A stretch of 64,000 bases of DNA from Myxococcales bacterium. GTDB taxonomy: Bacteria; Myxococcota; Myxococcia; Myxococcales; Myxococcaceae. Shown one piece after another: positions 18,515 through 37,249 of this stretch. Every line of letters begins with the position of its first letter. Position 1 is the first letter of the stretch. The stretch covers positions 1 through 64,000 of the forward strand of contig JAUXRI010000134.1 of assembly GCA_030681895.1 (NCBI GenBank), read 5' to 3'. Position numbers and translations under genes: made by a program. The notes beneath the pieces were generated by a model. It was not told the origin of the DNA and did no database searches. It saw nothing but the letters and a program-made list of their open reading frames with translations.

Positions 18515-20065
18515 TCAGGTCGAGCGGGGAACCGTCAACGGCAGTGACTCGGCTTCGTCCGCCCGCGGCACGGCGATGGCTTCAGGCTGGGGGCCCTTCA
18601 CGAAGAAGCGAATGAACGACGCGAGGTACGGCGGCCGGCGTCGCGACGCGTCGTCGAACGACGGCAGATACAGCCACGGCACCTTCGGGTGCTGGTGATG
18701 CGCGAGGTGCCAGTTGAAGTGGAGCAACAGCGCCTCGTACAGCCGCGGCGCCTTCAGGTTGTGCGCGCCGTCGAGCGCGTCGCGAGGCGAACCGGCGTGC
18801 GTGACGTATTGCTGCGACGCCCAGCACAGCCCGCCTGCCGCCTGGAGCAGCGCCCACGTCCACCCGAACGTCACCACGCCCAGCGTCTGCACCACCACCG
18901 CGCCGAGCGCCTCGAGCCGCACGCGTCGCAGCACCGAGTCCGTCACGCCCTTCACCATCGCGTCGGCGTCGGCGTGGAGCGGCGCGAACTTCGTGCGCAG
19001 CGCCTGTGGCCACACCACCAGCAACACCGTCGCCAGCGGCACCACCGCCCAGAAGCCGCCGAGGTAGAGGAAATAGAAGTACGCCCGTCGCGCGAACACG
19101 TCGTCGTGCGGCTCGAGAATGTCGAAGCGCTCCACCTCGCTGCGGTTTCGCCGGTGGTGCCCGAGGTGGCACATGCGCAGGAAGCTGAAGCTGCCCGGGA
19201 AGCAGAAGGCGAGCAGCACCCCGAACGTCTCATTGAGCCAGTGCGTCTCGTGAAAGATGCCGTGCTCCGCGTCGTGCAGCAGCGTGTACGCAGGCAGAAA
19301 GAGGAACGCGAAGGCGATGGTGGGGAAGACGAGGCCCACGGTGGAGCTCGACCGCGAAGCGAGCCACTGACAGCTCACCAGCAGGCCCATGATGCCGAGC
19401 GCGAGCGCCACGTTGAGGCCCGAGGGCGGGCGGGGAATGAGCGCTCCCGGACGCGCTGGTTCGACGCGCGGCGGAAAGAAGACCGCGTTCACCGCGAACG
19501 CGAGCAGCCCACCGGCGACGACGTCAGCGACGAAGTGCTGCTTCACCGTGAGCGTCGAGACGGCGATGGCGAGCGCCCAGAGGAGCCAGAGCGGACCGCC
19601 CTTCGCCTCACGCAGCCGCAGCGCCACCAACGTCGACGTGGTGACGTGAATCGAGGGCAGGGTGTTGCCGGGCAGGTCGTCGCTCCACATCGAGGCGAGC
19701 GCGGCGTGCAGCCAGGCAGGGTCGACACCATCGAGTGACGGCCGTGGGTAGTGAGAGGGCACCAGTACGAAGCCGAGCCAGCACAGGACGTTCGCCGTCA
19801 GCACCGCGCCGAGCGTCTTCGGGTACTCGCCCGGCTTCGCCCACCACGCGGCGAGCGGGAGCATCACGTAGAAGGACACGTAGATGAGCCACGAGAGGGG
19901 AAGGAACGGAATCCACCCGTCGAGCGGCACGAAGAAGTCGAAGCGCGGGGTGAGCGCAGCGTTGAGCCACTGGTAGATGACGAGCGTGCCGGCGACGAGC
20001 CCGAGCGTGCTCCCGATGCGCGTCGCGAAGTTCTTGTCGAGCAGCGCGATGAGGCGTGCGGTCAC
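18515..20065 (-). CDS. PAP2-type phosphatase/phosphotransferase fused to a fatty-acid desaturase
   Basis: A 516-aa two-domain membrane protein. Start: the GTG at 20065, because GGGAGGGG lies six bases before it; the frame opens further with a TTG at 20116. Residues about 1-220 form a PAP2/Aur1-Ipt1-like domain: SIHVTTSTLVAL with the SxH motif (about 138-140) and KQHFVADVVAGG (His near 178, Asp near 182), the second His-Asp pair. Residues about 230-490 carry the three desaturase His boxes: HDAEHGIFH (about 263), HLGHHRRN (about 300) and HLAHHQHP (about 452). Aur1-like enzymes move inositol phosphate or related heads onto ceramide. A combined head-group and acyl-chain modifier, perhaps for sphingolipids, is inferred. 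Both active sites look intact. Confidence 0.86.
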   Translation of the reverse strand: MTARLIALLDKNFATRIGSTLGLVAGTLVIYQWLNAALTPRFDFFVPLDGWIPFLPLSWLIYVSFYVMLPLAAWWAKPGEYPKTLGAVLTANVLCWLGFVLVPSHYPRPSLDGVDPAWLHAALASMWSDDLPGNTLPSIHVTTSTLVALRLREAKGGPLWLLWALAIAVSTLTVKQHFVADVVAGGLLAFAVNAVFFPPRVEPARPGALIPRPPSGLNVALALGIMGLLVSCQWLASRSSSTVGLVFPTIAFAFLFLPAYTLLHDAEHGIFHETHWLNETFGVLLAFCFPGSFSFLRMCHLGHHRRNRSEVERFDILEPHDDVFARRAYFYFLYLGGFWAVVPLATVLLVVWPQALRTKFAPLHADADAMVKGVTDSVLRRVRLEALGAVVVQTLGVVTFGWTWALLQAAGGLCWASQQYVTHAGSPRDALDGAHNLKAPRLYEALLLHFNWHLAHHQHPKVPWLYLPSFDDASRRRPPYLASFIRFFVKGPQPEAIAVPRADEAESLPLTVPRST

Positions 20066-20143
20066 GGAAAGCCCCTCCCGGCGGCGCACCGTGGAGGGAA
20101 GCGCTGTCGCCGTCAATCGCAGGCGTCAGCCGCGAAGGCTGGT

Positions 20144-24438: not shown

Positions 24439-27400
24439 CTACCGCACTGCCACCGCCACCGGTGGCGCCGACGCTCGAACCGCCGGGTCGTAATAGAGGT
24501 ACGCGAGGCTGCCCGCGCCCTTCGTGTCGACCGGCATCGTCGCCTTGAACCGCAGCGACAGCTTCAGCCGCTCTCCAGGGCTCAGCCGGTCCAGGTAGAG
24601 CCGCAGCTTCCCGCCCGACACCTGGAACTTCGCGACCCGGCCCATCTTCAGATTCTGGAGGTCCTCCATCATCGGCGTCAGGCCCGCAGGTACGCCGAGC
24701 TCGACGAGCGCCATGCCCGACGCCTCGCTGCCGCGATAGGTCAGCAACACGTCGACCGGCACCACGTCGCCGACGTCCACCTTGCGCGCGGCGTAGTCCA
24801 CCGTGAGCGCGAGCGGCTTGCCGTCGTCTTCACCTTGCTGACGCCAGGGCAGCGTGAACGTCGCCGTCGCGAGGAACGGCGCGTCGACGTCTGACGACAG
24901 CTCCACCACGTTGATGCCCTTGCGCGCGCGGTCACCCAGCACGAGCACCTTCGGCTTCCCGTCGGCCAGCGAGAACGCGCCGACCGCCGTGCCGTTGATG
25001 GAGACGTTCACCTTCGGCACGCCCTTCGACTCGGTGCCCGCCAGCAGCGCCTTGAGCGCGAGCGTGGTGGCCTGCGTCGAGGCCCACGCGCCGTGTCCCA
25101 ATCGCCGCGCCAGCAGGAAGTCGAGCGCGCCTTTCACCAGCGCAGGCTCGCGGCCGGCCTTCGCCAACGCGTACGCAGCCAGCGCGGTCGTCTCGACGTC
25201 GGCCGCAGCGCCGCGCCCGTAGTAGGCCGTCGCGCCGGTGGGGCTGAAGAAGACGAGCCCGTCGACCTGCTTCGCGCGCTTCGTCAGCATCGCCGCCGCG
25301 CGCGCCGTCTCGGGGTGGCGTGTCTTCGCGAAGCCCGCCGTCATCAACGCGAGCGTGTACGGGTCGTCAGCGCCCTCGAGGTTCTCGACCAGGAACCGCT
25401 GCGCGCGCTCCACGGCCTCTGACGTGAGGCCCGACTCCGTCAGCGCCCACGTGAGGTACGCCGTCACCGTCACCCGGCCGCGGTGCTCCGAGCGAAACAG
25501 GCCATCACGAATCATCTGGGTGTCGACGTCCCACGAGCCGTCCGACTGCTGCCTCGACACCAGGAAGTGCTGCGTGCGCTCGATGAGCTCCGGCTCGACG
25601 GGGAAGACCCGCTTCATGTCCGAGAACTCCATCAGGCCGTACGCCGTCAGCACCTGGTTGGCGGGCGCGCGGCCGAACCACTCGAAGCCGCCGCCAGGCA
25701 CCTCGAAGGCCACCAGCTTCTGGTAGCCCAGCGAGAGCAGGCGCGTGATGCGGCGCTCGAGCTCTGGCGTCAGCCGGTTCTCGCGGCGCAGGAACTCCTC
25801 CACCAGCACGTTGGGGTACGTCGTCGCCGAGGTCTGCTCGAAGCAGCCGGTGGGTTGCCCCAGCGTGCCTTCGATGCCGTCGAGCGCCGTGGCGGCGAGT
25901 GATGGGTAGAGCTTCACCAGCACCTGCGTCGCGCCCGTCGCTGCCTCGGGGACCAGCAACGACACCTTCGTCGCCGCGCCGGCCGTGAGTCTGCCCGACA
26001 CCGAGACCTGGTCTTCGCGCCCTGCCTCGGTGACCAACAACTCTCTGGCGACGACGTCGCTCTCGCTGGCGCCGTCTGCGCGAACGATGAGCTTGTGCTC
26101 GCCGGGCTCGAGCACGCGCAGGCGCAGCGAGCGGCCCTCGACACCACCAGCCGCGAGCGTCACCTTCTTCGGCGCTTCGCCCAGCAGCTCGAACCACGGC
26201 GCCTTCTCGACCTCGAGCCGCACGTCCTGAGACGTCTCGAGGTAGTTGTAGATGGCGATGGGCACGGTGGCCTCGTCGCCGCGAACCAGCGCGACGGGCA
26301 CGTCGAGGTCCACGAAGAAGTCCTGGAAGACCTTCAGCGGCGCGTCCATCGAGCCGAGCTTTCCGTCAGCCGACGAGGCGAGCGCGCTCACCCGCCACGC
26401 GGTGATGGAGTCGGCCAGCGGCACCGTCAGCTCCGCCACGCCCTTCTCATCCGAGATGAGCTGCGGGTGCACGTAGAGCGTCTCGGGGAAGTGCTGGCGC
26501 ACGCGTACCTCGCGGCGCGGCGGCTCGGGGGCTGCTGGCGCTGGTGCTGGTGCGACCATGCCGAGGGCGTTTGCTTTCGGGCCGTGAGCGCTCAGCGAGC
26601 CGATGTCATCGGCGCTCAGCGCGAGGACGCCCATCGTGCCCACCTGCTTCATCACCCTCTTCGCTTCCGGCCTCTTCTCCTCCTTCTTCGTGTCCACGCT
26701 CTCCGCCACTGCGGTCCGGGCGGACGGCGTCGCCGCCACCAGCTTCTCCTCGAGCCGCGTGGAGAAGAGCCCGTCTTCTTCGGGCGCTCGGGTCCAGAAC
26801 GACGCGGCGAGGGCGATGATGGGCATGACGACCAGAGCCGACCGGAGCTCTGCGTGTCGGCCGCGCAGGGCCCAGAGCGAGGCGCCAGCGATGACGACCC
26901 CGGTGACGAGCTGCGGCAGCCACGGCAACTGCAGCCACCCTGCGGCCAGAATCGAGCCCGCCACGAGCATGCCGCCCGCGACCGGCCCGACGCGCACCGA
27001 GAGGCTGACGACGAGCACGAGCAGCAGCAGCAAGGCAGCGCCGGGCCCGACCACCAGCGCGGCCTCACGCCACCGCATTTCTTCGGCTTCGCGCGCGACC
27101 AGCTTCTCGGCCACGGTGGACCTGGCGTAGCGCTGCGGCGTGGCGGCCAGGCTGAACTGGTTCGCGCTCATCGACAACAGGAGCCGGCCCGCCACCTGCT
27201 GCTCCTCCGTCCACGACTTCGACGAGAGCAGCTCGCCGGCGTTGAGGCCGTAGCGCGGCGTGAGCAACGCGCGCTCGACGAGGAAGAAGGCGCGCACCAC
27301 ATCGGGCGTGTTCGCAGTCAGCGCGAAGAGGCTCTCGTCCACCACCGAGAGGCCGAGCGCCGCGACCTTCGGCTTGCCCTGGGCGTCGGTCACCGTGAAG

Positions 27401-29853
27401 CGCAGCGTGGCGGGCTCACCCGGCCGGTAGGTGGGCTTGTCGGTGCTCATCGCGACCGAGAGCGCAGCGGGCTCTGCGACGACGATGCGTCGCGAGGCGT
27501 TCAGGTTCGGCAGCCTCAGCTCGAGCGTCCCCACGAAGTCTCTCGGGAGAATGAGTGACGCGGTTGCTCGGGCCCCTTCGACACCCATCAGCTTCATCGG
27601 CGTGTGGGCGATGAGTCGACCCTCGCTGCGGGCCTCCAGCTCCACGAGGGCCACCGCGCTCGACTGCACCTCCGCGAGCACGGTCTCGCCCGGACGGTAG
27701 AAGGCCTTGTCCGTCGTGAGCAACGAACCGGAGCCGTTCGAGAGCACGACTTCACGGCTCGTCTTGCGGCCCTCGGCGTCCTCGACGCGAACCTGGAAGA
27801 CCAGCTCGCCTTCCGGCCGGAACTGGAACCGGCCGAGGCCGTTCTCGGCGGTGCGCACAGAGATCGCCTGGCCCACCGCCAGCGGCGCCGAGACGGGTGG
27901 GAGGCTGGGCCTCCACGGCGCGACGTGCGCGAACGTGTTCAGGTCTCTGAACATGAACGGGAAGACGATGGTGCCGCCGCTGCTCGTCTGCGGAAACCGC
28001 CAGGTCCTGACCCGAGCGAGGACGCAGGCCTCGAGCTCAGGGTTCCGCACGGTGGAGGACCTGGACCGCGCGGACTTCACGGCGCCGATGTTCGAGACCT
28101 GCCACTCGACCACCAGCTTTCCCGCGACGTCTGGCGTCTTCAGGAGGGCGCGCTCGGCGCACGCCGACACCTCTCCCAGCTTCGAGTTGATGACCCTCGC
28201 CAACATCTCCTTGTCCATCGCGCCGCCTACGACGCTGATCTGGCGAGAGGCCGCCGTTCCGACCTGGCCTGGCCCCGGCGGCCTCGTCAGCCTCGCGGGA
28301 TTCAACAGCGCCGCAAGCCCTGACAGGTCCGCCGAGCCCGACATCGGCTGCACCTCGACCTTCGCGGGCACCGGCCGGCCATCGGGCCTCGTCGTCACCA
28401 CGAAGAACGTGTTCTCGAGACCTCTCACGGCGCTGCCTTCGGCGAGCACGTCGACCATCAACAGCTCGCGCGAGACGGTGAGCGCGCGCTCGGTGTGCTC
28501 CTGCTGACCTGCGACGTCCTTCGCCTCGAGCTGCAGCACCACCCCCTCCGGCATCCCGGGAGCGGCCAGCGTCGAGGGCAGCTCGGCCTCGAGCGTCAGC
28601 GTGCCATCGCCGTCGGTCTTGCCCTTCAGCTCGGCGAGCACGACGCCGTCACGCTTCAACAGCACGCCCTGCACCTGCGCGCCCACCACCGGCTTGCCGA
28701 AGAAGTAGCGCGCGGTGACGCGGGCCTTCACTCGTTCGCCGGCGAGGTACGTCTCCTTGTTGGGGACGATGGCGAGCTTGTACTTGGGCAGCGTGTAGCG
28801 GCCGACCTCGACCTGCGCGTCGGCGGTGACGCCCTCGACGGTGGCGGTCAGCTTCCACGCGCCGAGCGCCACGTCGTCGGACAGCTCGAGGTCGGTGCTG
28901 GCGATGCCGTAGCTGCTGACGGGCACGCTCTTCGAGAAGAGCCGGGCGTTGCGGGCGTCGCGCACCTCGAACAGCACGCTCTTGTCCGAGGCGGGCTCGG
29001 GCCGTGGGCTGCGCATCACCAGGCTGCGCAGGTGAATCGTCTGGCCCGGCTGGTACATCGGCTTGTCGGTGCTGAGGTGCACCTTGTACGAGCGCTGCAG
29101 CTGGAGCGGCACGCTCACCACGTCGGTCTCGTCGCCCGCGCGCGTGGTCACCTCGAGCAGCGGCGACGCTTCGGCGGTCGACGGCACGGTGACGCTGAGC
29201 TCGGCGTTCCCGAGAGAATCGGTGCGCCCGTCGGTGAGCGCGATGCGGCCGGTGCTCGTCACCAGCGCGAGCGACAGCGGCGCGTCGGGAATCGCCACGC
29301 CCTCGCGGCGCACCTCGACGCGCACCAGCCCGTGTCCACCGGCCTGCAGCGACGACTCGCCGGAGATGATGGTCTCCATCGGCGCCAGGCGCGACGACAG
29401 GTACAGCCTGCTGCCGCCGATGAACGCGGGGCTCAGCACGAGCAGCGCCAGCGTCGCCAGGCGAAGGGGCCGCGCAGAACCTCCGGCCGTCACGCCGAGC
29501 CACGCCCAGAAGCCCGGTAACGGTTCGTCGGCGCGCTCGGCCGAGACGACCGTGACGGGCAGGGGCGCAGGCGCCGGGGCAGGCGCGACGGGATGCGCTT
29601 CTCCAGTCGCCCGCTTGCGCACGCTGACCTCGAAGGCCGCCGTGGCGCGCTCGAGCGCCTTCGCCAGCGTCGCTTCGTCAGCCGTGCCCTCGACGTCGTA
29701 CGCGCCCAGGCGCTCGATGCGCTCGCCGAGCTTCGCGTAGGTCCTGGTGCAGTCGGAACACGTGCGCAGGTGCTCCGCGACCTCGGCCGCCTCGTCTCGC
29801 TCGAGGGTGCCGAAGCGGTACTGCAGCAGCGTCTCTTCGAGTGGGTGGCTCAT
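24439..29853 (-). CDS. Zinc anti-sigma domain fused to membrane alpha-2-macroglobulin
   Basis: A 1,804-aa fusion. Residues 1-40 are a zinc anti-sigma (zf-HC2) domain with H28-x3-C32-x2-C35 (AEHLRTCSDC). A membrane helix lies near 129-150, then macroglobulin (MG) domains with VHLSTDKPMYQPGQTIHLR. Residues about 541-640 are an AgmX/TonB-like domain (WRFPQ, IVFPFMF) set inside the MG array. Four further membrane helices occupy about 930-1020, then a Pro/Ala-rich stretch and FPETLYVHP (about 1121). The thioester GCFEQ is at 1336-1340, intact, and receptor-like domains end the protein. Alpha-2-macroglobulins trap proteases that cut their bait. With N-terminus inside and five helices, both MG parts would be periplasmic. 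It overlaps the sigma gene by 4 bp (ATGA). The usual partner PbpC is absent. Confidence 0.93.
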   Translation of the reverse strand: MSHPLEETLLQYRFGTLERDEAAEVAEHLRTCSDCTRTYAKLGERIERLGAYDVEGTADEATLAKALERATAAFEVSVRKRATGEAHPVAPAPAPAPLPVTVVSAERADEPLPGFWAWLGVTAGGSARPLRLATLALLVLSPAFIGGSRLYLSSRLAPMETIISGESSLQAGGHGLVRVEVRREGVAIPDAPLSLALVTSTGRIALTDGRTDSLGNAELSVTVPSTAEASPLLEVTTRAGDETDVVSVPLQLQRSYKVHLSTDKPMYQPGQTIHLRSLVMRSPRPEPASDKSVLFEVRDARNARLFSKSVPVSSYGIASTDLELSDDVALGAWKLTATVEGVTADAQVEVGRYTLPKYKLAIVPNKETYLAGERVKARVTARYFFGKPVVGAQVQGVLLKRDGVVLAELKGKTDGDGTLTLEAELPSTLAAPGMPEGVVLQLEAKDVAGQQEHTERALTVSRELLMVDVLAEGSAVRGLENTFFVVTTRPDGRPVPAKVEVQPMSGSADLSGLAALLNPARLTRPPGPGQVGTAASRQISVVGGAMDKEMLARVINSKLGEVSACAERALLKTPDVAGKLVVEWQVSNIGAVKSARSRSSTVRNPELEACVLARVRTWRFPQTSSGGTIVFPFMFRDLNTFAHVAPWRPSLPPVSAPLAVGQAISVRTAENGLGRFQFRPEGELVFQVRVEDAEGRKTSREVVLSNGSGSLLTTDKAFYRPGETVLAEVQSSAVALVELEARSEGRLIAHTPMKLMGVEGARATASLILPRDFVGTLELRLPNLNASRRIVVAEPAALSVAMSTDKPTYRPGEPATLRFTVTDAQGKPKVAALGLSVVDESLFALTANTPDVVRAFFLVERALLTPRYGLNAGELLSSKSWTEEQQVAGRLLLSMSANQFSLAATPQRYARSTVAEKLVAREAEEMRWREAALVVGPGAALLLLLVLVVSLSVRVGPVAGGMLVAGSILAAGWLQLPWLPQLVTGVVIAGASLWALRGRHAELRSALVVMPIIALAASFWTRAPEEDGLFSTRLEEKLVAATPSARTAVAESVDTKKEEKRPEAKRVMKQVGTMGVLALSADDIGSLSAHGPKANALGMVAPAPAPAAPEPPRREVRVRQHFPETLYVHPQLISDEKGVAELTVPLADSITAWRVSALASSADGKLGSMDAPLKVFQDFFVDLDVPVALVRGDEATVPIAIYNYLETSQDVRLEVEKAPWFELLGEAPKKVTLAAGGVEGRSLRLRVLEPGEHKLIVRADGASESDVVARELLVTEAGREDQVSVSGRLTAGAATKVSLLVPEAATGATQVLVKLYPSLAATALDGIEGTLGQPTGCFEQTSATTYPNVLVEEFLRRENRLTPELERRITRLLSLGYQKLVAFEVPGGGFEWFGRAPANQVLTAYGLMEFSDMKRVFPVEPELIERTQHFLVSRQQSDGSWDVDTQMIRDGLFRSEHRGRVTVTAYLTWALTESGLTSEAVERAQRFLVENLEGADDPYTLALMTAGFAKTRHPETARAAAMLTKRAKQVDGLVFFSPTGATAYYGRGAAADVETTALAAYALAKAGREPALVKGALDFLLARRLGHGAWASTQATTLALKALLAGTESKGVPKVNVSINGTAVGAFSLADGKPKVLVLGDRARKGINVVELSSDVDAPFLATATFTLPWRQQGEDDGKPLALTVDYAARKVDVGDVVPVDVLLTYRGSEASGMALVELGVPAGLTPMMEDLQNLKMGRVAKFQVSGGKLRLYLDRLSPGERLKLSLRFKATMPVDTKGAGSLAYLYYDPAVRASAPPVAVAVR

Positions 29854-30431
29854 GACAGCTCCTCACCGAGGCCGGCCAGCAGCCCACGAAGGTGCACGAG
29901 CGCGGCGTTCATGCGCGACTTGACGGTGCCGAGCGGTGCGCTGGTCGCGATGGCGACCTCTTCGTACGAGAGCTGCGTGTAGTGATGGAGCACGAAGACC
30001 TCGCGTTGCACGTCGGGGAGCGTCGCCAGCGCCTCGGCGATGCGCTGACCTGTCTGGTTGGCGGCGACGGCCTGCTCGGGGTCGGGCAGGCGGCTGGCGA
30101 TGGCGCTGACGGCACCGAGCGAGCGCTCGCCCGCGCGGCTCTGCGTGCGGCGGAAGTTGCGGCACAGGTTCGACGCGATGGTGAAGGCCCACGGCTTGAA
30201 CGACTCGGGTGAGCTGCAGGTGTCGATGCGGTCGAGGATGCTCAGCAGGGTCTGCTGGTACACATCGCGCGCGTGGGTGCGGTTGCCCAGCTGCCGCGCG
30301 ATGAAGCCATACAGCGGCCGCTCGTATCGTTTGATCAGCACCTCGAACGCCATGGCGTCTCCCAGGTCGCGCAGCCCGAGCACCAGCGCCCCGTCCGTCC
30401 GCTCATCCGTGCGGTTGTCCTCCGTGCTCAT
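29850..30431 (-). CDS. ECF-type RNA polymerase sigma factor
   Basis: A 193-aa sigma-70-family factor of the extracytoplasmic-function type. Region 2 contains YERPLYGFIARQLGNRTHARDVYQQT and FKPWAFTIASNLCRNFRR; region 4 contains ALATLPDVQREVFVLHHY and the HTH LSYEEVAIATSAPLGTVKSRM. Regions 1.1 and 3 are absent, as expected for ECF factors. The ATG at 30431 follows GGGAGGG at good spacing. The stop overlaps the start of the anti-sigma/alpha-2-macroglobulin gene, so the two are made together in fixed ratio. The 163-bp upstream gap is AT-richer and should hold its promoter; no confident -35/-10 was assigned. Its targets are unknown. Confidence 0.93.
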   Translation of the reverse strand: MSTEDNRTDERTDGALVLGLRDLGDAMAFEVLIKRYERPLYGFIARQLGNRTHARDVYQQTLLSILDRIDTCSSPESFKPWAFTIASNLCRNFRRTQSRAGERSLGAVSAIASRLPDPEQAVAANQTGQRIAEALATLPDVQREVFVLHHYTQLSYEEVAIATSAPLGTVKSRMNAALVHLRGLLAGLGEELS

Positions 30432-30594
30432 GATCCCTCCCCGGGACCACGCGCCTTCCCCTGGCTCGTGGCGCTTAAGAAACACCACGACGAATTAAGT
30501 TCGACGCGGCCTGCGAAAGTTCAGGCGCACGACGATACCCCGGGCCAGGTGCCCGGAACGATTGATGGTTCTGGGGAGTCGGAGGCCCGGGCCG

Positions 30595-32637
30595 TCAGCG
30601 CTTCACGGAATAGACGAACGTCGCCTTCGGCGCGCGCAGCCACCGCTCGGTGATCAGCTCGCGCTTCTTGGCCCACTCGTCCTTCGCGTCGACGAACTCG
30701 GCCACCATCGCCTCGGCGTCCTTCTTGTCGCCCTTGCCCTTGGCCATCAGCACGCGCTTCGCGAGCACGTCGACCGCGGGCTTCCACTTCGCGAAGTCGA
30801 TGTCGAAGCAGCCGACGTCGGCGCCGTTGGCCGTCTTCTCGTCGGCTTTGAACGTCAGCGCGCCGGCCTTCATCAAGGTGCCGAGCTGAATCGACGCGAG
30901 GTGGCTGTAGTTCCGCGGCTTGTTGTCAGCCGTGTACATGCCGCGGCTCACGTGCCCGAAGCCCCACGCGACGTCGCGCACCACGGCCGCATCGGCCTCG
31001 GCCTGGGTGATGAGGTTCTTCGTCACCAGCCACTGCGCGAAGTAGAGCGCCGAGGTCTGGGCCTTGAGCTCCTCCATCGTCGAGGCGAGCGGGCCGCCGA
31101 AGATCTCGTCGTCCTCCTGGCCCTTCACCTTGTACTCGTGGCTCGGGCCCAGGTTGTGCGAGGCCTCGTGCAGCACCACGCTCATGATGGCGGGCTTCGC
31201 GTCGGTGGTGGCCTTCGTCATCAGCGCGCTGCAGAACAGCGACGCCATCTGCGCCTCGAGCGCCTTCTGGCTGTCGAGGTCGGTGTAGAGGTTCGTCATC
31301 ACCACCGTGCGGCCACCCTTCTCGGCGACCTTGCCCCAGTTGGGCAGCGACTGACCGATGGTGGCGCCGTGCGCGTTTCGCGCGTCACCGGCGTTGAGCA
31401 CCATGTCGATGAAGTCGGGCAGCTTGAACTTCACGTCGCGCGCTTTGTACGGAGGCCCCGCCAGCGTCGCGAGCGCCTTCTCGAGCTCGCCCTTCACCGG
31501 CTCGAGCTTCTGCTGCCACGCCAGCGAGTCGAGGTTGATGCGCGCGAAGCTGACCGCGAACCCGGCCTTCCACGCGCACGGCTCGTAATAGACCTCGTCG
31601 GGCGCGAGCCGCAGGTACCACTTGGAGTTGGTCGGGCCCATGGCGACCCACGCTTCGTTCGCGGGCTCCCAGTCGTTGGTGCGGAACGACGTCGCCGTCG
31701 CGCGCAGGTACTTCTGAAACGCCTTCTCTCCTTCCGACGTGATGGCGTTCGCAGCCGCCTCGAGCGAGGTGGCGATGGACTCCATGTCGGCCTTGTACGC
31801 CTCGGAGTACGGCACCGCCTTGAAGCCCGTGCCGTCGGCGACGACGACCGAGAAGTGGCCCATCAGGTCCTTCGCGTTCTTCGCCTTCGAGAGCGTCTCG
31901 CAGAACTTCGGGTCGGCCTGAATCGCGGCGGGGTAGAGGCCCGACAGCCGCGGCGGCTTCGGAGCGATGGCCATGCACTCGGCCTCGTTCTCGGTCTTCG
32001 GCGCAGCGCAGAACGGGCCCTGGTTGCGGTGGAGCAGCGAGCGTGACGCCGCGTCCTTCGCGACCATGCCGTCGGTGCCCAGCTGCTTCGCGTGAATGCG
32101 CTCGATGGCGTTCGCCGCCGCGAAGACGTGCTGGATGATGGCCTTGTCTTCGTCGGTGCCCTTCGAGAGGTCGGTCTCGACGAGCGTGGGCCGGCCCTGC
32201 GAGAGCTCGAGGCGCACGAGGCTCAGGCGCTTCTGCTCTGCGGCCGGCAGCGCCTTGTCGTCAGCGGTCTTCAGCATCGTCTCGTAGGCCGCGAGGAAGG
32301 CCGCGGTGAAGTGGCCCTTCTCGTCGACGAAGGTGGATCGCATCGCGTCTTGCGGGCCCCAGAGGATCGCGAGCTCCGCCGGCTCGAGCACCTTGTTGCC
32401 GTCGTTGTCGTCACGCCAGAAGAAGGGAAGGAAGTGCTCCTGGGCGCGCACGTTGAAGTCGATGCGCGAGAGGCGGTCGTAGGTTGCCATCGGCGCAGTG
32501 GGAGGCGTCGCCACCGCTGCCGTGACTTTGGGCTCTTCCTTCACGGCTTCTTTGGCGCAGCCAGCGAACGAGAGGGCGGTCGCGGCGGTGAGGCCGAGGA
32601 ACAGGCGCTGCGCCGAGTGAGTCGGGTGATGTCGCAT
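30595..32637 (-). CDS. Zinc metallopeptidase-like lipoprotein (M49-like)
   Basis: A 680-aa lipoprotein; signal ends LSFAGC (Cys27) with CTGGAG before the ATG. The zinc motif is HEASH in VVLHEASHNLGPSHEY (about residue 489), followed some 30 residues later by STMEELKAQTSALYF (about 520), where the Glu pair matches the third-ligand motif EExxA of the M49/dipeptidyl-peptidase III group. The same His motif also reads HExxHxxGxxH, the metzincin form, so the assignment to M49-like is a judgement from the EELKAQ segment. An EF-hand-like DDNDGNKVLEPAE occurs near 77. It lies upstream of the ECF sigma and alpha-2-macroglobulin genes on the same strand, a protease beside a protease trap. Confidence 0.82.
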   Translation of the reverse strand: MRHHPTHSAQRLFLGLTAATALSFAGCAKEAVKEEPKVTAAVATPPTAPMATYDRLSRIDFNVRAQEHFLPFFWRDDNDGNKVLEPAELAILWGPQDAMRSTFVDEKGHFTAAFLAAYETMLKTADDKALPAAEQKRLSLVRLELSQGRPTLVETDLSKGTDEDKAIIQHVFAAANAIERIHAKQLGTDGMVAKDAASRSLLHRNQGPFCAAPKTENEAECMAIAPKPPRLSGLYPAAIQADPKFCETLSKAKNAKDLMGHFSVVVADGTGFKAVPYSEAYKADMESIATSLEAAANAITSEGEKAFQKYLRATATSFRTNDWEPANEAWVAMGPTNSKWYLRLAPDEVYYEPCAWKAGFAVSFARINLDSLAWQQKLEPVKGELEKALATLAGPPYKARDVKFKLPDFIDMVLNAGDARNAHGATIGQSLPNWGKVAEKGGRTVVMTNLYTDLDSQKALEAQMASLFCSALMTKATTDAKPAIMSVVLHEASHNLGPSHEYKVKGQEDDEIFGGPLASTMEELKAQTSALYFAQWLVTKNLITQAEADAAVVRDVAWGFGHVSRGMYTADNKPRNYSHLASIQLGTLMKAGALTFKADEKTANGADVGCFDIDFAKWKPAVDVLAKRVLMAKGKGDKKDAEAMVAEFVDAKDEWAKKRELITERWLRAPKATFVYSVKR

Positions 32638-33389: not shown

Positions 33390-36300
33390 TCAGTCGCGGC
33401 AGCAGACGACGCCGTCTTCACCGCGCTGCCGACAGCCAGACGCACGCCCGCCGATGGTGACCGACGCCGCGCAACACTGCGCGTCGATGCGGCTTCGGTC
33501 GGCGAGGCACGTGGCTCCTCCATCAGGAATCGACGACGGCGCGCGGCTCACCCCCGAGACGAGCAGACAGCCGCGGCCCATGCCGGCCATGTCGTCGCGG
33601 GCGGGGTTGCCCTGGCACTCGAGCGGCTCGCACCCGTCGAAGCCGTCGTTCGACGCGCGGTACGCGAAGCACCCGGCGAAGGCGGTGGCCTGCGCGAAGT
33701 TCACGGTCGAGAGCTCGGTGTCCGCTGGCGTACAGACGTGGAAGTTCGCGCCGCACACCGCATCGGTCGCGGCCGACAGGTCTCCGGCCCACGTCGCCTG
33801 GCACGCGGCGATGTTCGGCCACGCGACGTCGTCGACGAAGCCCTCGCGCGTTCCATCGGCGCAGCCCGCTTGTACGACGCCGGCATCGACGACGCTGCAG
33901 GTGCCGTTGCGACAGGTCCCCGCGCAGACGAGGCCACAGCCGCCACAATTCGCGGTGCTCGTCGTGATGTCGACGCAGGCTCCGCCACACCGCTGCTGGC
34001 CCGAGTTGCAACGCAGCGACACCATCGCCGTCACGCGCATGCCGAGGTGCGGCGCGATGTACCGCCACACCTGGTCTCGCTGCGGGTCACGAACGTCGCC
34101 GCCATCGGGCGTCCACGGCGGCTCGACGGACCCCGACTGGGTCGAGGAGCCCCACCGCTCGTAGATGATGCCGTTCGGCACGGCCGGGCGCACGCGCTGC
34201 TGGAACACGTACGACGCATCGGGCTGCCACACGGGCACCGGGTCGCCGAGGTCGCTGCTCGCGAACCAGTCGGTGCCCAGCTGCGTCCACGTGAGGCCCT
34301 CGTCGCTCGAGGTCATGAGGGGCGGTGATGCGTTCTGGTTCGCAATGACGAGCGCGTCGTCGGCGCCTCGCACCATTCCGCTCAGTGACAGCACCGGTGT
34401 CGTCGGGAGCGGCCGCAGTGAGAACGCCGCGCCGCGGTTGGCGCTGAACCACACGCCCGTGCCCGAGGTGACGAAGATGGAGTCTCCGGGGCCGTAGACG
34501 GCGCAGTCGGCGCAGGTGCCGCCGATGGGGCCTGCGCTCCCGCCGTCGAGGAAGCGCAGGTCGGCCGCTGCGACGAACGGCGTGCCCTGGCCGAGCGCGT
34601 CGTAGAGCAGCCGCGTGCCGGCGGGACCGTACATGTTCGAAATTCTCACGCCGCCATCGGTGGGAAACAGGCCGTTCTGTTGGTTGTTGTTGGATGTGGG
34701 GATGACGACCAGCGCAGGGCTGACCCCTGAGACGGTGGCGCGATTGCCAGCGCCGTCTCCCACGCCGTTCATTACGCGCAGCCAGGTCGAGCCGTTGTCC
34801 GCGCTGCGCAGCGCGCCCGCGAAGGTGTTCCCCGGGCCGCCGTTGACGCCGATGGTGATGGCTCCAGTGACGAAGTCCACCGCGGCGGCCGCGACGACGC
34901 CGGTGACGTTTCGGTTCGAGCCGTCGAAGACCTTCGCCCAGCCCACACCGTCGGGTGAGCGCCAAAGACTGCCTTCTTCGGGCGCCGCCGCGACGTCGTC
35001 GGTGACTGCGAAGAGCCACTGCCCATCGGCCGACGCCACGAGCTGAATCACCGGCGGGAGCGCGGTCACGTTGACCCGACTCCACCCGGCCGGCGTGAGC
35101 GTGGCGATGACCGTCTCAGGCGTCAGGTTGGTGCGGCCCTCTGGGTAGGTGAGGCCAGCGACGAAGAGGCCCGTCGAGTTGCACTGGCCATTGCGGCACA
35201 ACGAGCCGGCGGGGCAGGTGAGGCCCTGACACGCCTGGTCGACGCAGCGCCCGCCGAGGAACACGAAGCCCGGCGCACAGCCAGTGCCCGTCTGGCTCGA
35301 GGTCGGCAGGCAGACGCCACCCAGACACGAGTGTTGTGGCGCGCACGTGACGTCGACGCACCGCACGTCCTGGCAGTTGGCGTTGACGCAGACGGTCCCG
35401 GGCCCGCACGTGCCGTAGCGGCACAGCTGCGAGATGCAGCGGCCGTTCGCGCAGAGTGCGCCCGAGGCACAGGCGACTCCGGCGCACGCCAACGGCTTGC
35501 AGGTGACGCCGTCGCAGACTTCGCCGACCCCACACGTCGTCGTCGCGCCGCACGAGGCGCCATAGCAGCGGCCGTCGTTGCAGGAGGCCGCGCAGCTCTG
35601 CAGCCCGCACGCCGCGCTCTGGCATTCGATGGAGGCGGAGCAGAAGAAGCCCGCGCTGCACGCTCCGGCACAGTCGAGCGGAGCGCCCGCGTCGACGGAG
35701 CCAGCATCGGCAGCGCCAGCATCGACGCCAGCGTCGGGTTCGCCAGCATCGACGCCCGCGTCGGGTTCGCCTGCATCGACGCCAGCGTCGGGTTCGCCAG
35801 CATCGACGCCAGCGTCGGGTTCGCCTGCATCGACGCCAGCGTCGGGTTCGCCTGCATCGACGCCCGCGTCGGGAGCGCCAGCATCGACGCCAGCATCGCG
35901 TGCGCCCGCGTCGAGAGCGGCGCCACCATCAGGCGTGGGCGGCGTTTGCCCTGCGTCGAGGCTCAGGACCGTCGAGGTGCCTGGCGCGAGGGCAATCACC
36001 CCGAGGTCATTGGCCCCGGGAAGGAAGAGCCGTTGTCCCAGCTTCGCGCTCACGAAGCCGCTCGCTTCGACGCCCACCACCCACGCGCCCGAAGGAACCG
36101 GCCCCAACTGGAAACGCCCCTCGGCGTTCGTCGTCGCACCAGCCGAGCCGAGGAACGACACGGCGCGAATCCGCGCTCCCGCGACCGGCCCGCTCGCCGA
36201 CGTCACCAGGCCTGTCGTCGTCGCGGCTTCGCTCGGGCTTGGAATCAACAGCACGTCGGCCAGGCGCTTGTCTTCCCCCGCCTCGAGCACCACCTCGCGC

Positions 36301-36863
36301 GCGTCGGCCAGGTAGTTCTGACGGAAGAACGCCACCGTGAGCGGTCCCTCGGGCAAGCCGTCGAGTGTCCAGCTGCCGTTGTCGGCGCTGAAGGTGGTGA
36401 ACTCCATGCCCGCGATGAAGACGGTGGTGCCGAGGTGGAACGTGTCGGGCCCGAGGTCCTGACGAAGCACGCGGCCCGAGAGGCGGCCGTTGCGTCCCAG
36501 CACCACGTCTCCCAACGCGACGTCTCGACCCGGCCCCGCGTTGATGGTCTCGATGGCGATGAGGCGTTGGCGGTCGGGAGCTCCGTCACCATCGAGGTCG
36601 GCGGTGAAGCGCACGATGCCAGTGGGCGCCGTGACACCCGCGAGCAGGAAACGGCCTTCGGCGTCGGTGCGCGCTTCGAGCGACGAGCCCAGCAGGGCGA
36701 CGCGGCCTTCCCGCGCGGCGAGCAACCCTGCGCGACCCGGCTCCGAGTACTTCAGCGTTCCCTGAATCGTCCCGGGTCCTGCTGGCGGTGGCGTGCCGGG
36801 AAGCGACAGCTCGAAGCAGCCCGACAGCGCGAGCGCCGACATCACCACGACCCTGACGTTCAT
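33390..36863 (-). CDS. 1,157-aa modular surface lipoprotein
   Basis: A large lipoprotein. The ATG at 36863 begins MNVRVVVMSALALSGCFE (lipobox Cys16). Order of parts: carboxypeptidase-regulatory-like/CNA-B-type beta domains (about 35-305, with DAEGRFLLAGV and NAEGRFQLGPV); a DAGEPDAGV repeat stalk (about 315-395); a Cys-rich block of CxxxxC knots resembling EGF/dickkopf-type modules (about 400-560); a BNR/propeller-like region with SADNGSTW and SSDEGLTWTQL Asp-box-like signatures (about 565-990); and a second Cys-rich C-terminal block (about 1000-1157). It is anchored and extended by the stalk, so adhesion or glycan recognition is plausible. It converges with the CpaB-like gene. Confidence 0.8.
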   Translation of the reverse strand: MNVRVVVMSALALSGCFELSLPGTPPPAGPGTIQGTLKYSEPGRAGLLAAREGRVALLGSSLEARTDAEGRFLLAGVTAPTGIVRFTADLDGDGAPDRQRLIAIETINAGPGRDVALGDVVLGRNGRLSGRVLRQDLGPDTFHLGTTVFIAGMEFTTFSADNGSWTLDGLPEGPLTVAFFRQNYLADAREVVLEAGEDKRLADVLLIPSPSEAATTTGLVTSASGPVAGARIRAVSFLGSAGATTNAEGRFQLGPVPSGAWVVGVEASGFVSAKLGQRLFLPGANDLGVIALAPGTSTVLSLDAGQTPPTPDGGAALDAGARDAGVDAGAPDAGVDAGEPDAGVDAGEPDAGVDAGEPDAGVDAGEPDAGVDAGEPDAGVDAGAADAGSVDAGAPLDCAGACSAGFFCSASIECQSAACGLQSCAASCNDGRCYGASCGATTTCGVGEVCDGVTCKPLACAGVACASGALCANGRCISQLCRYGTCGPGTVCVNANCQDVRCVDVTCAPQHSCLGGVCLPTSSQTGTGCAPGFVFLGGRCVDQACQGLTCPAGSLCRNGQCNSTGLFVAGLTYPEGRTNLTPETVIATLTPAGWSRVNVTALPPVIQLVASADGQWLFAVTDDVAAAPEEGSLWRSPDGVGWAKVFDGSNRNVTGVVAAAAVDFVTGAITIGVNGGPGNTFAGALRSADNGSTWLRVMNGVGDGAGNRATVSGVSPALVVIPTSNNNQQNGLFPTDGGVRISNMYGPAGTRLLYDALGQGTPFVAAADLRFLDGGSAGPIGGTCADCAVYGPGDSIFVTSGTGVWFSANRGAAFSLRPLPTTPVLSLSGMVRGADDALVIANQNASPPLMTSSDEGLTWTQLGTDWFASSDLGDPVPVWQPDASYVFQQRVRPAVPNGIIYERWGSSTQSGSVEPPWTPDGGDVRDPQRDQVWRYIAPHLGMRVTAMVSLRCNSGQQRCGGACVDITTSTANCGGCGLVCAGTCRNGTCSVVDAGVVQAGCADGTREGFVDDVAWPNIAACQATWAGDLSAATDAVCGANFHVCTPADTELSTVNFAQATAFAGCFAYRASNDGFDGCEPLECQGNPARDDMAGMGRGCLLVSGVSRAPSSIPDGGATCLADRSRIDAQCCAASVTIGGRASGCRQRGEDGVVCCRD
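35721..35909. repeat. 27-bp minisatellite coding for DAGEPDAGV stalk
   Basis: Seven consecutive 27-bp units differ by one or a few bases, mostly A/C or A/T swaps at one site; the last two diverge more. Each encodes one nine-residue Asp-Ala-Gly unit on the minus strand. Copy-number change would alter stalk length in steps of nine residues without a frameshift. Confidence 0.88.
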
Positions 36864-37249
36864 TCGGCGCACTTGAGTGTGGCGTGATGGGGGCCTCAAG
36901 CGCCTTCTGGCTCGCCTCCCATGCGCGCGCGTGATCCGCTGTGGGCGCCCTCCGCCGATCAGCCGACGATCGCCCCTGTCTCCTTCCTGTTCATGTCAGT
37001 TCGCATCGACCTGATTCAGGCCACCCGTCATCGATGAATCTGTCTCGCAATGAGACGATTCTGACACACGATAACATTCTGATGTTCGGTTGATTCTTAG
37101 ACGTCGAGAACGATTGTTGGAAAGTTCAGATACAACCACATGGACTCGGAGCTTTTCCGGGCACTTAGGCGTACATCCAGTAAATTCATGGGATTGGACG
37201 TGGCAAGGAAGCTGCTTTGGGCTCCTGCTGTCTGAATCAAGGAGTGCTC
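36864..37249. other. 386-bp AT-richer intergenic region with regulatory elements
   Basis: Bases about 36990-37200 are clearly less GC-rich than flanking genes. The stretch holds a palindrome CCTGATTCAGG (37010-37020), a direct repeat ATTCTGA at 37058-37064 and 37076-37082 (18-bp period), and the sigma-54-like promoter at 37201. No gene is supported. It separates the large lipoprotein gene (minus) from the metzincin gene (plus). Confidence 0.55.
37201..37217 (+). promoter_or_regulatory. Candidate sigma-54 (-24/-12) promoter
   Basis: TGGCAAGGAAGCTGCTT has the invariant GG and GC with exactly ten bases between them and the surrounding T/CA and T residues of the RpoN consensus. Transcription would start near 37227, about 23 bases before the metzincin ATG, leaving room for the AAGGAG at 37239-37244. 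Putative upstream activator elements lie 145-215 bases before the start. Confidence 0.5.

Follow-up and report, generated by a model that had tools for sequence, protein, structure and literature searches.

What would a sigma factor gain from an inhibitor that is joined, in a single polypeptide, to an alpha-2-macroglobulin (A2M)? The question is raised by a locus of a Myxococcales bacterium of the family Myxococcaceae (GenBank assembly GCA_030681895.1, contig JAUXRI010000134.1), of which positions 1 to 64,000 were analysed and are called the window here. A gene for an extracytoplasmic function (ECF) sigma factor of 193 aa (29850..30431) is followed by a gene for a fusion protein of 1804 aa (24439..29853), both on the minus strand, as are the features placed within and just upstream of them below. 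The sigma stop codon and the fusion start codon share the bases ATGA, which is the 4-bp overlap reported by the first-pass annotation of this DNA. In the reading proposed here, the fusion is an anti-sigma factor of the membrane that uses a thioester A2M as its extracytoplasmic sensor, and cleavage of the bait would release the sigma factor; we regard the case for this as evenly balanced. That the trap itself serves as the receptor and the bait as a transmembrane wire is a distinctly more tentative proposal.

The sigma factor is a member of the ECF group (PF04542, Sigma70_r2, 51.5 bits; PF08281, r4_2, 48.8 bits; sigma70-ECF, 87.3 bits; all over cut-off). In the fusion, Pfam and NCBIfam matches follow one another as zf-HC2, MG2, MG3, myxo_SS_tail, A2M_BRD, A2M, thioester and receptor domains, in a frame with no internal stop across 1804 codons, which confirms the first annotation that one chain combines the zinc anti-sigma domain with a membrane helix and an A2M. 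GC content at third codon positions (GC3) is 0.80–0.95 along the gene, and in the anti-sigma part third positions hold 33 of 59 base differences from one close relative (genome G010) and 34 of 66 from another (G009). These relatives, 69% and 61% identical, came to light when 96 genomes of this family were searched with the protein, G009 being cut at its 3′ end by a contig end; a 46% relative (G048) is cut at a contig start. With a profile, run against 145 genomes of the order, G137 and G139 were also recovered. Because the same fusion recurs in G010, G009, G139 and G137, chance or assembly error is excluded as its source, and a frameshift or assembly split of the gene is ruled out by these relatives, the open frame and the even GC3. 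The arrangement of zf-HC2 plus A2M behind an ECF gene, for which the annotation suggested a search, is present in five Myxococcota loci whose 5′ end is complete. In all five the sigma gene lies immediately upstream; the overlap is 4 bp in four of them and G137 has a 2-bp gap.

The pairing extends beyond this phylum. From 17 further Myxococcota regions, 15 gave an A2M frame, none of which had HxxxCxxC in its first 500 residues or a sigma gene directly upstream, and two (loci L106 and L109) held no frame with the motif. In a scan of named genomes, 79 of 430 relatives were examined, and an A2M frame could be read in 71 of these. Sigma-coupled among the matches listed were two Archangium metagenome-assembled genomes (L125 and L126, which are G010 and G009), L128 and L131 of Verrucomicrobiota, L181 of Planctomycetales bacterium ZRK34, and L190 of Armatimonadetes; L186 of Bipolaricaulota has an anti-sigma-like N-terminus where its contig starts. 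Searches around L181, L131, and L190 covered 298, 387, and 251 genomes, of which 15, 3, and 72, respectively, held a match at the thresholds used. From these, 25 regions were read, partly chosen because the match reached the N-terminus; 23 gave a frame and nine of the frames are coupled (L233–L236, L241–L243, L275, L276). This brings the coupled loci to 18, with a sigma–A2M spacing of −8 to +48 bp, and the pairing is thus also present in Verrucomicrobiota, Planctomycetota, and Armatimonadota. Nine coupled sigma factors compared with NCBIfam all passed the general ECF model, that of L131 also passing Sig-70_gvs1; for the others the best specific models did not reach cut-off, and in four of them the best was NF009166, as it is for the window.

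The N-terminus of the window protein is supported as an anti-sigma domain by its sequence. It covers residues 1–83 (29605..29853) and carries H3, H28, C32, and C35, the last three at exactly the residues first named and invariant in all five Myxococcota rows. H3 sits 25 residues ahead of H28, a spacing that we take to be that of ChrR. The zf-HC2 profile scored 20.9 bits on the whole protein, just under the cut-off of 22.2, and 25.9 bits, over it, in the genome scan. Three helices plus a fourth are predicted: a model of residues 1–87 gave helices at 4–13, 19–31, 33–51, and 60–82 (mean predicted local distance difference test, pLDDT, 82.3; predicted template modelling score, pTM, 0.51), and an AlphaFold model of 1200 residues (mean pLDDT 73.9, pTM 0.58, 34 sequences) placed them at 2–13, 19–31, 33–51, and 60–83, ahead of a disordered stretch. 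The set resembles that of the anti-sigma domain in PMC4598750.

A profile of the five Myxococcota N-termini, searched against 177,635 distinct PDB sequences, had seven matches up to E 1. RsiW came first (1.5e-5), then ChrR (0.0033 and 0.0038), 3hug chain B (0.028, named probable conserved membrane protein), DdvA (0.11), and two ubiquitin thioesterases (0.54 and 0.55), giving the anti-sigma identity first assigned to the domain its sequence support. The 3hug chain is presumably RslA. A second profile, from the zinc-bearing N-termini of L236, L275, and L276 of other phyla, matched RsiW at 2.1e-11 and RsrA at 3e-4, and the L275 N-terminus matched RsiW at 1.7e-7 along residues 4–72. The two profiles match each other with 97.9% probability. 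Among the 18 coupled proteins, nine have HxxxCxxC within the first 120 residues. zf-HC2 was over the Pfam cut-off in L190, L236, L275, and L276 and just under in L233, and it was absent in a Pfam search of L131, L181, L234, L241, and L242. A third profile of six N-termini, five without the zinc motif (L181, L186, L234, L235, L241) and L233 with it, had no PDB match below 0.05 and matched the L236/L275/L276 profile at 95.8%. The assignment of zinc-less N-termini as anti-sigma domains therefore comes from profile comparison, and in the phylum of L131 from position alone.

Within the genome of the window, large zf-HC2 fusions are a common kind. At least 18 zf-HC2 matches were found, with 150 of 306 candidates scored. 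None of the nine other zf-HC2 proteins read is an A2M; by eye, zf-HC2 precedes kinase-like domains in five of them and a VIT/vWA-like region in another, and the other three (L310, L311, L313) lie behind an ECF gene. The kinase-like five (L306, L308, L309, L312, L314) have the zf-HC2 motif before Ser/Thr-kinase-like domains and no coupled ECF gene in the stretches read, L306 showing a weak sigma match on the opposite strand.

The anti-sigma domain is followed by the first membrane helix (residues 130–148, 29410..29466), assigned by hydropathy and lying within a low-confidence model helix at 125–153 (block pLDDT means 57–68). In the 18 coupled proteins this helix starts at residue 77–139. Beyond it, the MG2, MG3, A2M_BRD, A2M, thioester, and receptor domains all score over their Pfam cut-offs, which places the protein in the A2M family. 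The first macroglobulin beta domains (residues 159–504, 28342..29379; MG2 257–345, MG3 352–398) are beta-rich in the model, mostly at pLDDT >85. An A2M_BRD match (38.2 bits) lies ahead of the bait position at residues 712–845 (27319..27720), the thioester domain covers residues 1324–1603 (25045..25884; TED_complement 128.6 bits), and the last, receptor-binding macroglobulin domain covers residues 1711–1795 (24469..24723; A2M_recep 39.8 bits). The CxEQ thioester motif of the family is present as GCFEQ, as first annotated, with C1337–Q1340 at 25834–25845. Between the MG domains and A2M_BRD is an insertion of the myxo_SS_tail type (AgmX/PglI C-terminal, TonB_C-like; residues 546–636, 27946..28218; NF033768 87.3 bits, cut-off 40), which is aligned in G010 and G009 and absent from L010, L096, and L097. 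Such tails are of the gliding-machinery type, as in GltG/GltJ. The first-pass annotation had not recorded this insertion.

By sequence, this A2M is nearer to animal CD109 and A2ML1 (best matches, 3.6e-60 and 2.8e-50) than to E. coli YfhM (5e-8), so that it is not of the YfhM type by closest sequence. The fold search on the model does not distinguish animal from bacterial A2Ms: Foldseek with residues 1–1200 gave human CD109 as first PDB match (E 2e-28, TM 0.37) and E. coli ECAM at rank 14 (E 4.9e-26). No pbpC was found in the six neighbouring frames scanned with Pfam, and no search was aimed at pbpC beyond these. The weight that the first-pass annotation gave to this absence is not supported: pbpC pairing is described for yfhM (PMC4498604), and the missing gene means little because the A2M resembles the animal type more than YfhM.

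The most telling feature lies in the bait position, which in the coupled proteins is bounded by VDES, at the end of the front half of MG6, and by the FPET plug. Where the A2M family has a soluble, exposed bait that proteases cut, the window protein has a fast-evolving, low-confidence linker (residues 1021–1113, 26515..26793) preceded by hydrophobic helices (residues 914–1020, 26794..27114). The first-pass annotation had recognised one membrane helix; that helix stands, and these further ones had been missed. Three are counted at a strict hydropathy threshold and four at a looser one and in the model (914–955, 957–973, 979–997, 1003–1020). The linker is probably disordered: pLDDT is <50 at 1014–1113, with beta structure resuming afterwards, and identity is 37% to G010 and 36% to G009, whereas the segment after it reaches 86% and 77%. 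When 12 segments are compared with these two relatives, conservation is lowest in those of the helices and the linker. The linker ends at the plug motif RVRQHFPET (residues 1117–1125, 26479..26505), which has the conserved pattern R-x-R-x-x-F-P-E-T and aligns to HVRKHFPET of CD109; in an alignment of 34 proteins, R1117, R1119, F1122, P1123, E1124, and T1125 are each conserved in 90% or more. In all 18 coupled proteins the bait-position helices are followed by a linker and this plug. In A2Ms a cut bait lets the plug retract and the molecule collapse (PMC9352918, PMC9156758). As plug retraction is the known trigger, the bait helices sit directly upstream of it.

Bait helices accompany coupling. 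The survey began with 131 frames of at least 600 aa with a thioester-like motif, and 106 were used after 4 cut near the motif, 7 duplicates, and 14 lacking the 5′ end or upstream DNA were left out. In the wider stretch, at least two bait-position helices are present in 18/18 coupled proteins and in 7 of 88 uncoupled A2Ms; in the narrower, at least one is present in 17/17 and in 5 of 57. The narrower count set L037, L096, and L097 as coupled by hand, their stop-to-stop frames having hidden the sigma overlap, and the wider replaced this with a wider distance rule. The Fisher values (1.1e-12 narrower, 5e-15 wider) ignore relatedness, and the counts are not prevalence figures because several loci were read since their matches reached the N-terminus. 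At the looser threshold, 17 coupled proteins have two helices (five proteins), three (L097), four (six), six (four) or seven (L243); at the strict threshold in the wider stretch the 18 have 2 to 7, eight of them an odd number. The linker that follows is 38–134 residues long in the 17. In an A2M of Lentisphaeria (L200), cut at its 5′ end, about 11 hydrophobic segments were seen in the bait position.

Loop charges suggest how these helices may be arranged. In all 12 coupled proteins with at least three helices (looser threshold), each odd-numbered loop exceeds all the even-numbered ones in K/R, so that rich and poor loops alternate, the window protein carrying 1, 0, and 2; the single loops of the five two-helix proteins carry 0–3. 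The predicted membrane topology is likely but not secure because the outer flanks also carry K/R. No known membrane domain was matched over the Pfam cut-off in five bait-helix segments.

The ancestry of the coupled proteins bears on how much their agreement means. In a quick tree of 91 A2M cores they are scattered, with 11 changes, at least 7 of them forced. In a 50-row tree, the 26 bait-helix rows as a single clade gave a p-AU (approximately unbiased test) of 0.663 and a higher likelihood than the free tree. Repeated origin of coupling was dropped on this result, the single clade being not rejected and scoring higher; the 18 cases are therefore not many independent events. The simplest view would be that coupling is common, and has at times been lost, within a single old branch of bait-helix proteins. 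Sigma and A2M distances are correlated, with r = 0.87 for 17 loci (reached by 0 of 2000 permutations) and, without near copies, r = 0.71 for 14 (1 of 2000), as expected of a cassette inherited together.

From the architecture, coupling, and conservation read in these sequences, we infer binding, trapping, and signalling as follows. At rest the anti-sigma domain would hold the sigma factor, in keeping with anti-sigma domains that hold ECF sigma factors and release them by proteolysis or conformational change (PMC4598750, PMC8103513). The bait would thread hairpins into the inner membrane, and its far end, beyond a linker that is flexible and periplasmic, would sit as a plug in the A2M channel. 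Once a protease, foreign or runaway, cut the linker, the plug would retract, the trap would close and the thioester would grab the protease. The bait helices, freed from the A2M body beside the first membrane helix, might then repack or expose that helix, opening it to site-1/site-2 proteolysis and so freeing the sigma factor. The idea of a relay of bait cleavage to the anti-sigma domain gains in plausibility from bait helices in 18/18 coupled proteins. The sigma factor would probably drive its own operon and make more trap, since a GAACYT-N13-GTTTC footprint is kept in three genomes.

This footprint, picked by eye upstream of the sigma gene as GAACTT-N13-GTTTC (30479..30502), has the same spacing in the window, G010, and G009. 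It has one exact match in the genome, as does a reversed control; with one mismatch there are 2 in the window, a number reached by 13 of 100 shuffles. As a promoter it is a possible candidate and a weak lead. A common ECF promoter, GAAC-N15..18-CGT, sought over the 18 upstream regions, was rejected with four matches (L096, L097, L275, L276) at scattered distances. The 25 bases directly before the sigma start (30432–30456) are identical in the three genomes, and seem to be conserved as DNA or RNA because the upstream reading frame differs among them.

The general kind, an ECF sigma factor with a membrane anti-sigma factor bearing an outer sensor, is known. RsiW of the B. subtilis RsiW-SigW pair is like the fusion in its N-terminal zinc anti-sigma domain, for which it is the best PDB match. 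RsiW is not known to carry an A2M, a thioester or bait helices. It is trans-membrane and cut by PrsW and RasP (PMC4598750). It is released by regulated intramembrane proteolysis; for the fusion, proteolytic release is a hypothesis. RsiV of the RsiV-SigV pair, a lysozyme-receptor anti-sigma factor (PMC4183432), is alike in that the anti-sigma factor itself, not a site-1 protease, would sense the attacking enzyme. RsiV binds lysozyme, whereas the sensor of the fusion would be a protease trap with a thioester. In its logic RsiV is the nearest known system. In myxobacteria, DdvA is reportedly a transmembrane anti-sigma factor, according to a 2024 title, and the N-terminus profiles weakly match PDB entries that bear the names antisigma factor DdvA and CHAT domain-containing protein. 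The outer part is of CHAT type in DdvA, in agreement with the PDB name, and an A2M in the fusion. DdvS of Myxococcus xanthus is a myxobacterial ECF sigma factor (PMC12288465). On the A2M side, CD109, A2ML1, and human A2M share the plug and thioester motifs and are the best sequence matches. We know of no anti-sigma domain or bait membrane helices in these animal members. YfhM/ECAM, a lipoprotein by its PDB name, and the Salmonella A2M are likewise thioester A2Ms, anchored at the inner membrane (PMC4498604), differing in two extra N-terminal MG domains and pbp1C often being in the operon (PMC4498604, PMC9156758). An A2M as anti-sigma sensor with a membrane-threaded bait was not found in the open-access papers searched.

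Several observations weigh against the proposed relay. The N-termini of L128, L131, L242, and L243 are taken as anti-sigma by position alone; those of L131 and L242 match no anti-sigma family in Pfam, and L128 and L243 are near copies. zf-HC2 is not always an anti-sigma domain, as it also precedes kinase-like domains in this genome. Site-2 protease genes are present in the genome, but also in 14/14 control genomes. The bait helices are of low confidence in the model (block pLDDT 46–78), and their even number is insecure (15/17 at the looser threshold, 10/18 at the strict one in the wider stretch). The 15-residue outer flanks of the helices, which the model would place outside, also bear K/R (1–5 before, 0–5 after) and the single loops of L181 and L234 carry none. 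Five bait-helix A2Ms (L180, L182, L195, L244, L277) have no coupled sigma gene; they have 4–7 bait-position helices and, by eye, no anti-sigma N-terminus. A phylogeny-aware pair test was not significant (2 pairs the same way, 0 opposite, 3 with no difference), and since one origin is also not rejected, the 18/18 pattern may be one inherited accident.

The rival that survives best, unlikely as it is, has the A2M sensing something other than bait cleavage, such as a ligand, envelope damage or an outer-membrane partner reached via the TonB_C-like insert. The bait helices would then only anchor, and the sigma factor would be released by ligand binding and ordinary regulated proteolysis, like lysozyme in RsiV (PMC4183432). 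The extra myxo_SS_tail domain in the window protein and two relatives fits this, although the insert is absent from L010, L096, and L097. So do insect TEP proteins, for which PMC9156758 knows of no demonstrated protease inhibition, whereas the kept thioester and plug motifs, and a bait segment that evolves fast as bait regions are said to (PMC9352918), speak against this rival.

The fusion could instead serve only to couple the quantity of trap to sigma activity: spent A2M would be degraded whole after cleavage, anti-sigma domain included, so that free sigma restores the stock with no signal through the membrane helices. A single polypeptide, short or overlapping gene spacing, and a candidate self-regulating promoter conserved in three genomes, with one exact genome match, would suit such a homeostat, but it leaves the bait-position helices of 18/18 coupled proteins unexplained and is rather improbable. 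It would be more surprising still if the A2M acted as a decoy, inhibiting the periplasmic protease that would cut the anti-sigma factor and allowing release only once the trap is saturated. Monomeric A2M inhibitors do rely on covalent protease capture (PMC9156758), but none of the analyses supports the decoy directly and, as a matter of logic, a chain that holds both the trap and what it protects might still be cut in cis. That a frameshift or chimeric assembly fused two genes is suggested only by the fragmented draft genome (352 contigs) and has a negligible chance, given that the architecture recurs in four more Myxococcota loci, of which one is truncated at the 3′ end, and in other phyla, and that the frame is open with an even GC3.

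If bait cleavage does release the sigma factor, an irreversible protease trap would act as a one-shot sensor of proteolytic attack in bacteria. The A2M fold, an immune protein in animals, would gain a signalling use in bacteria, and bait helices would be a new means of relaying a cleavage event through a membrane. Because the output is a promoter, the function of bacterial A2Ms, so far an open question, would become directly testable.

Other features of the window were noted. A 680-aa protein (30595–32637), encoded on the strand of the sigma gene and some 160 bp upstream of it, matches M49 dipeptidyl-peptidase III weakly (18.8 bits against a cut-off of 21). At 33390–36899 lies a carboxypeptidase-regulatory-like, cysteine-rich protein with a repetitive DAGVDAGEP stretch, and at 18515–20116 a PAP2 phosphatase and a fatty acid desaturase are joined in one frame.

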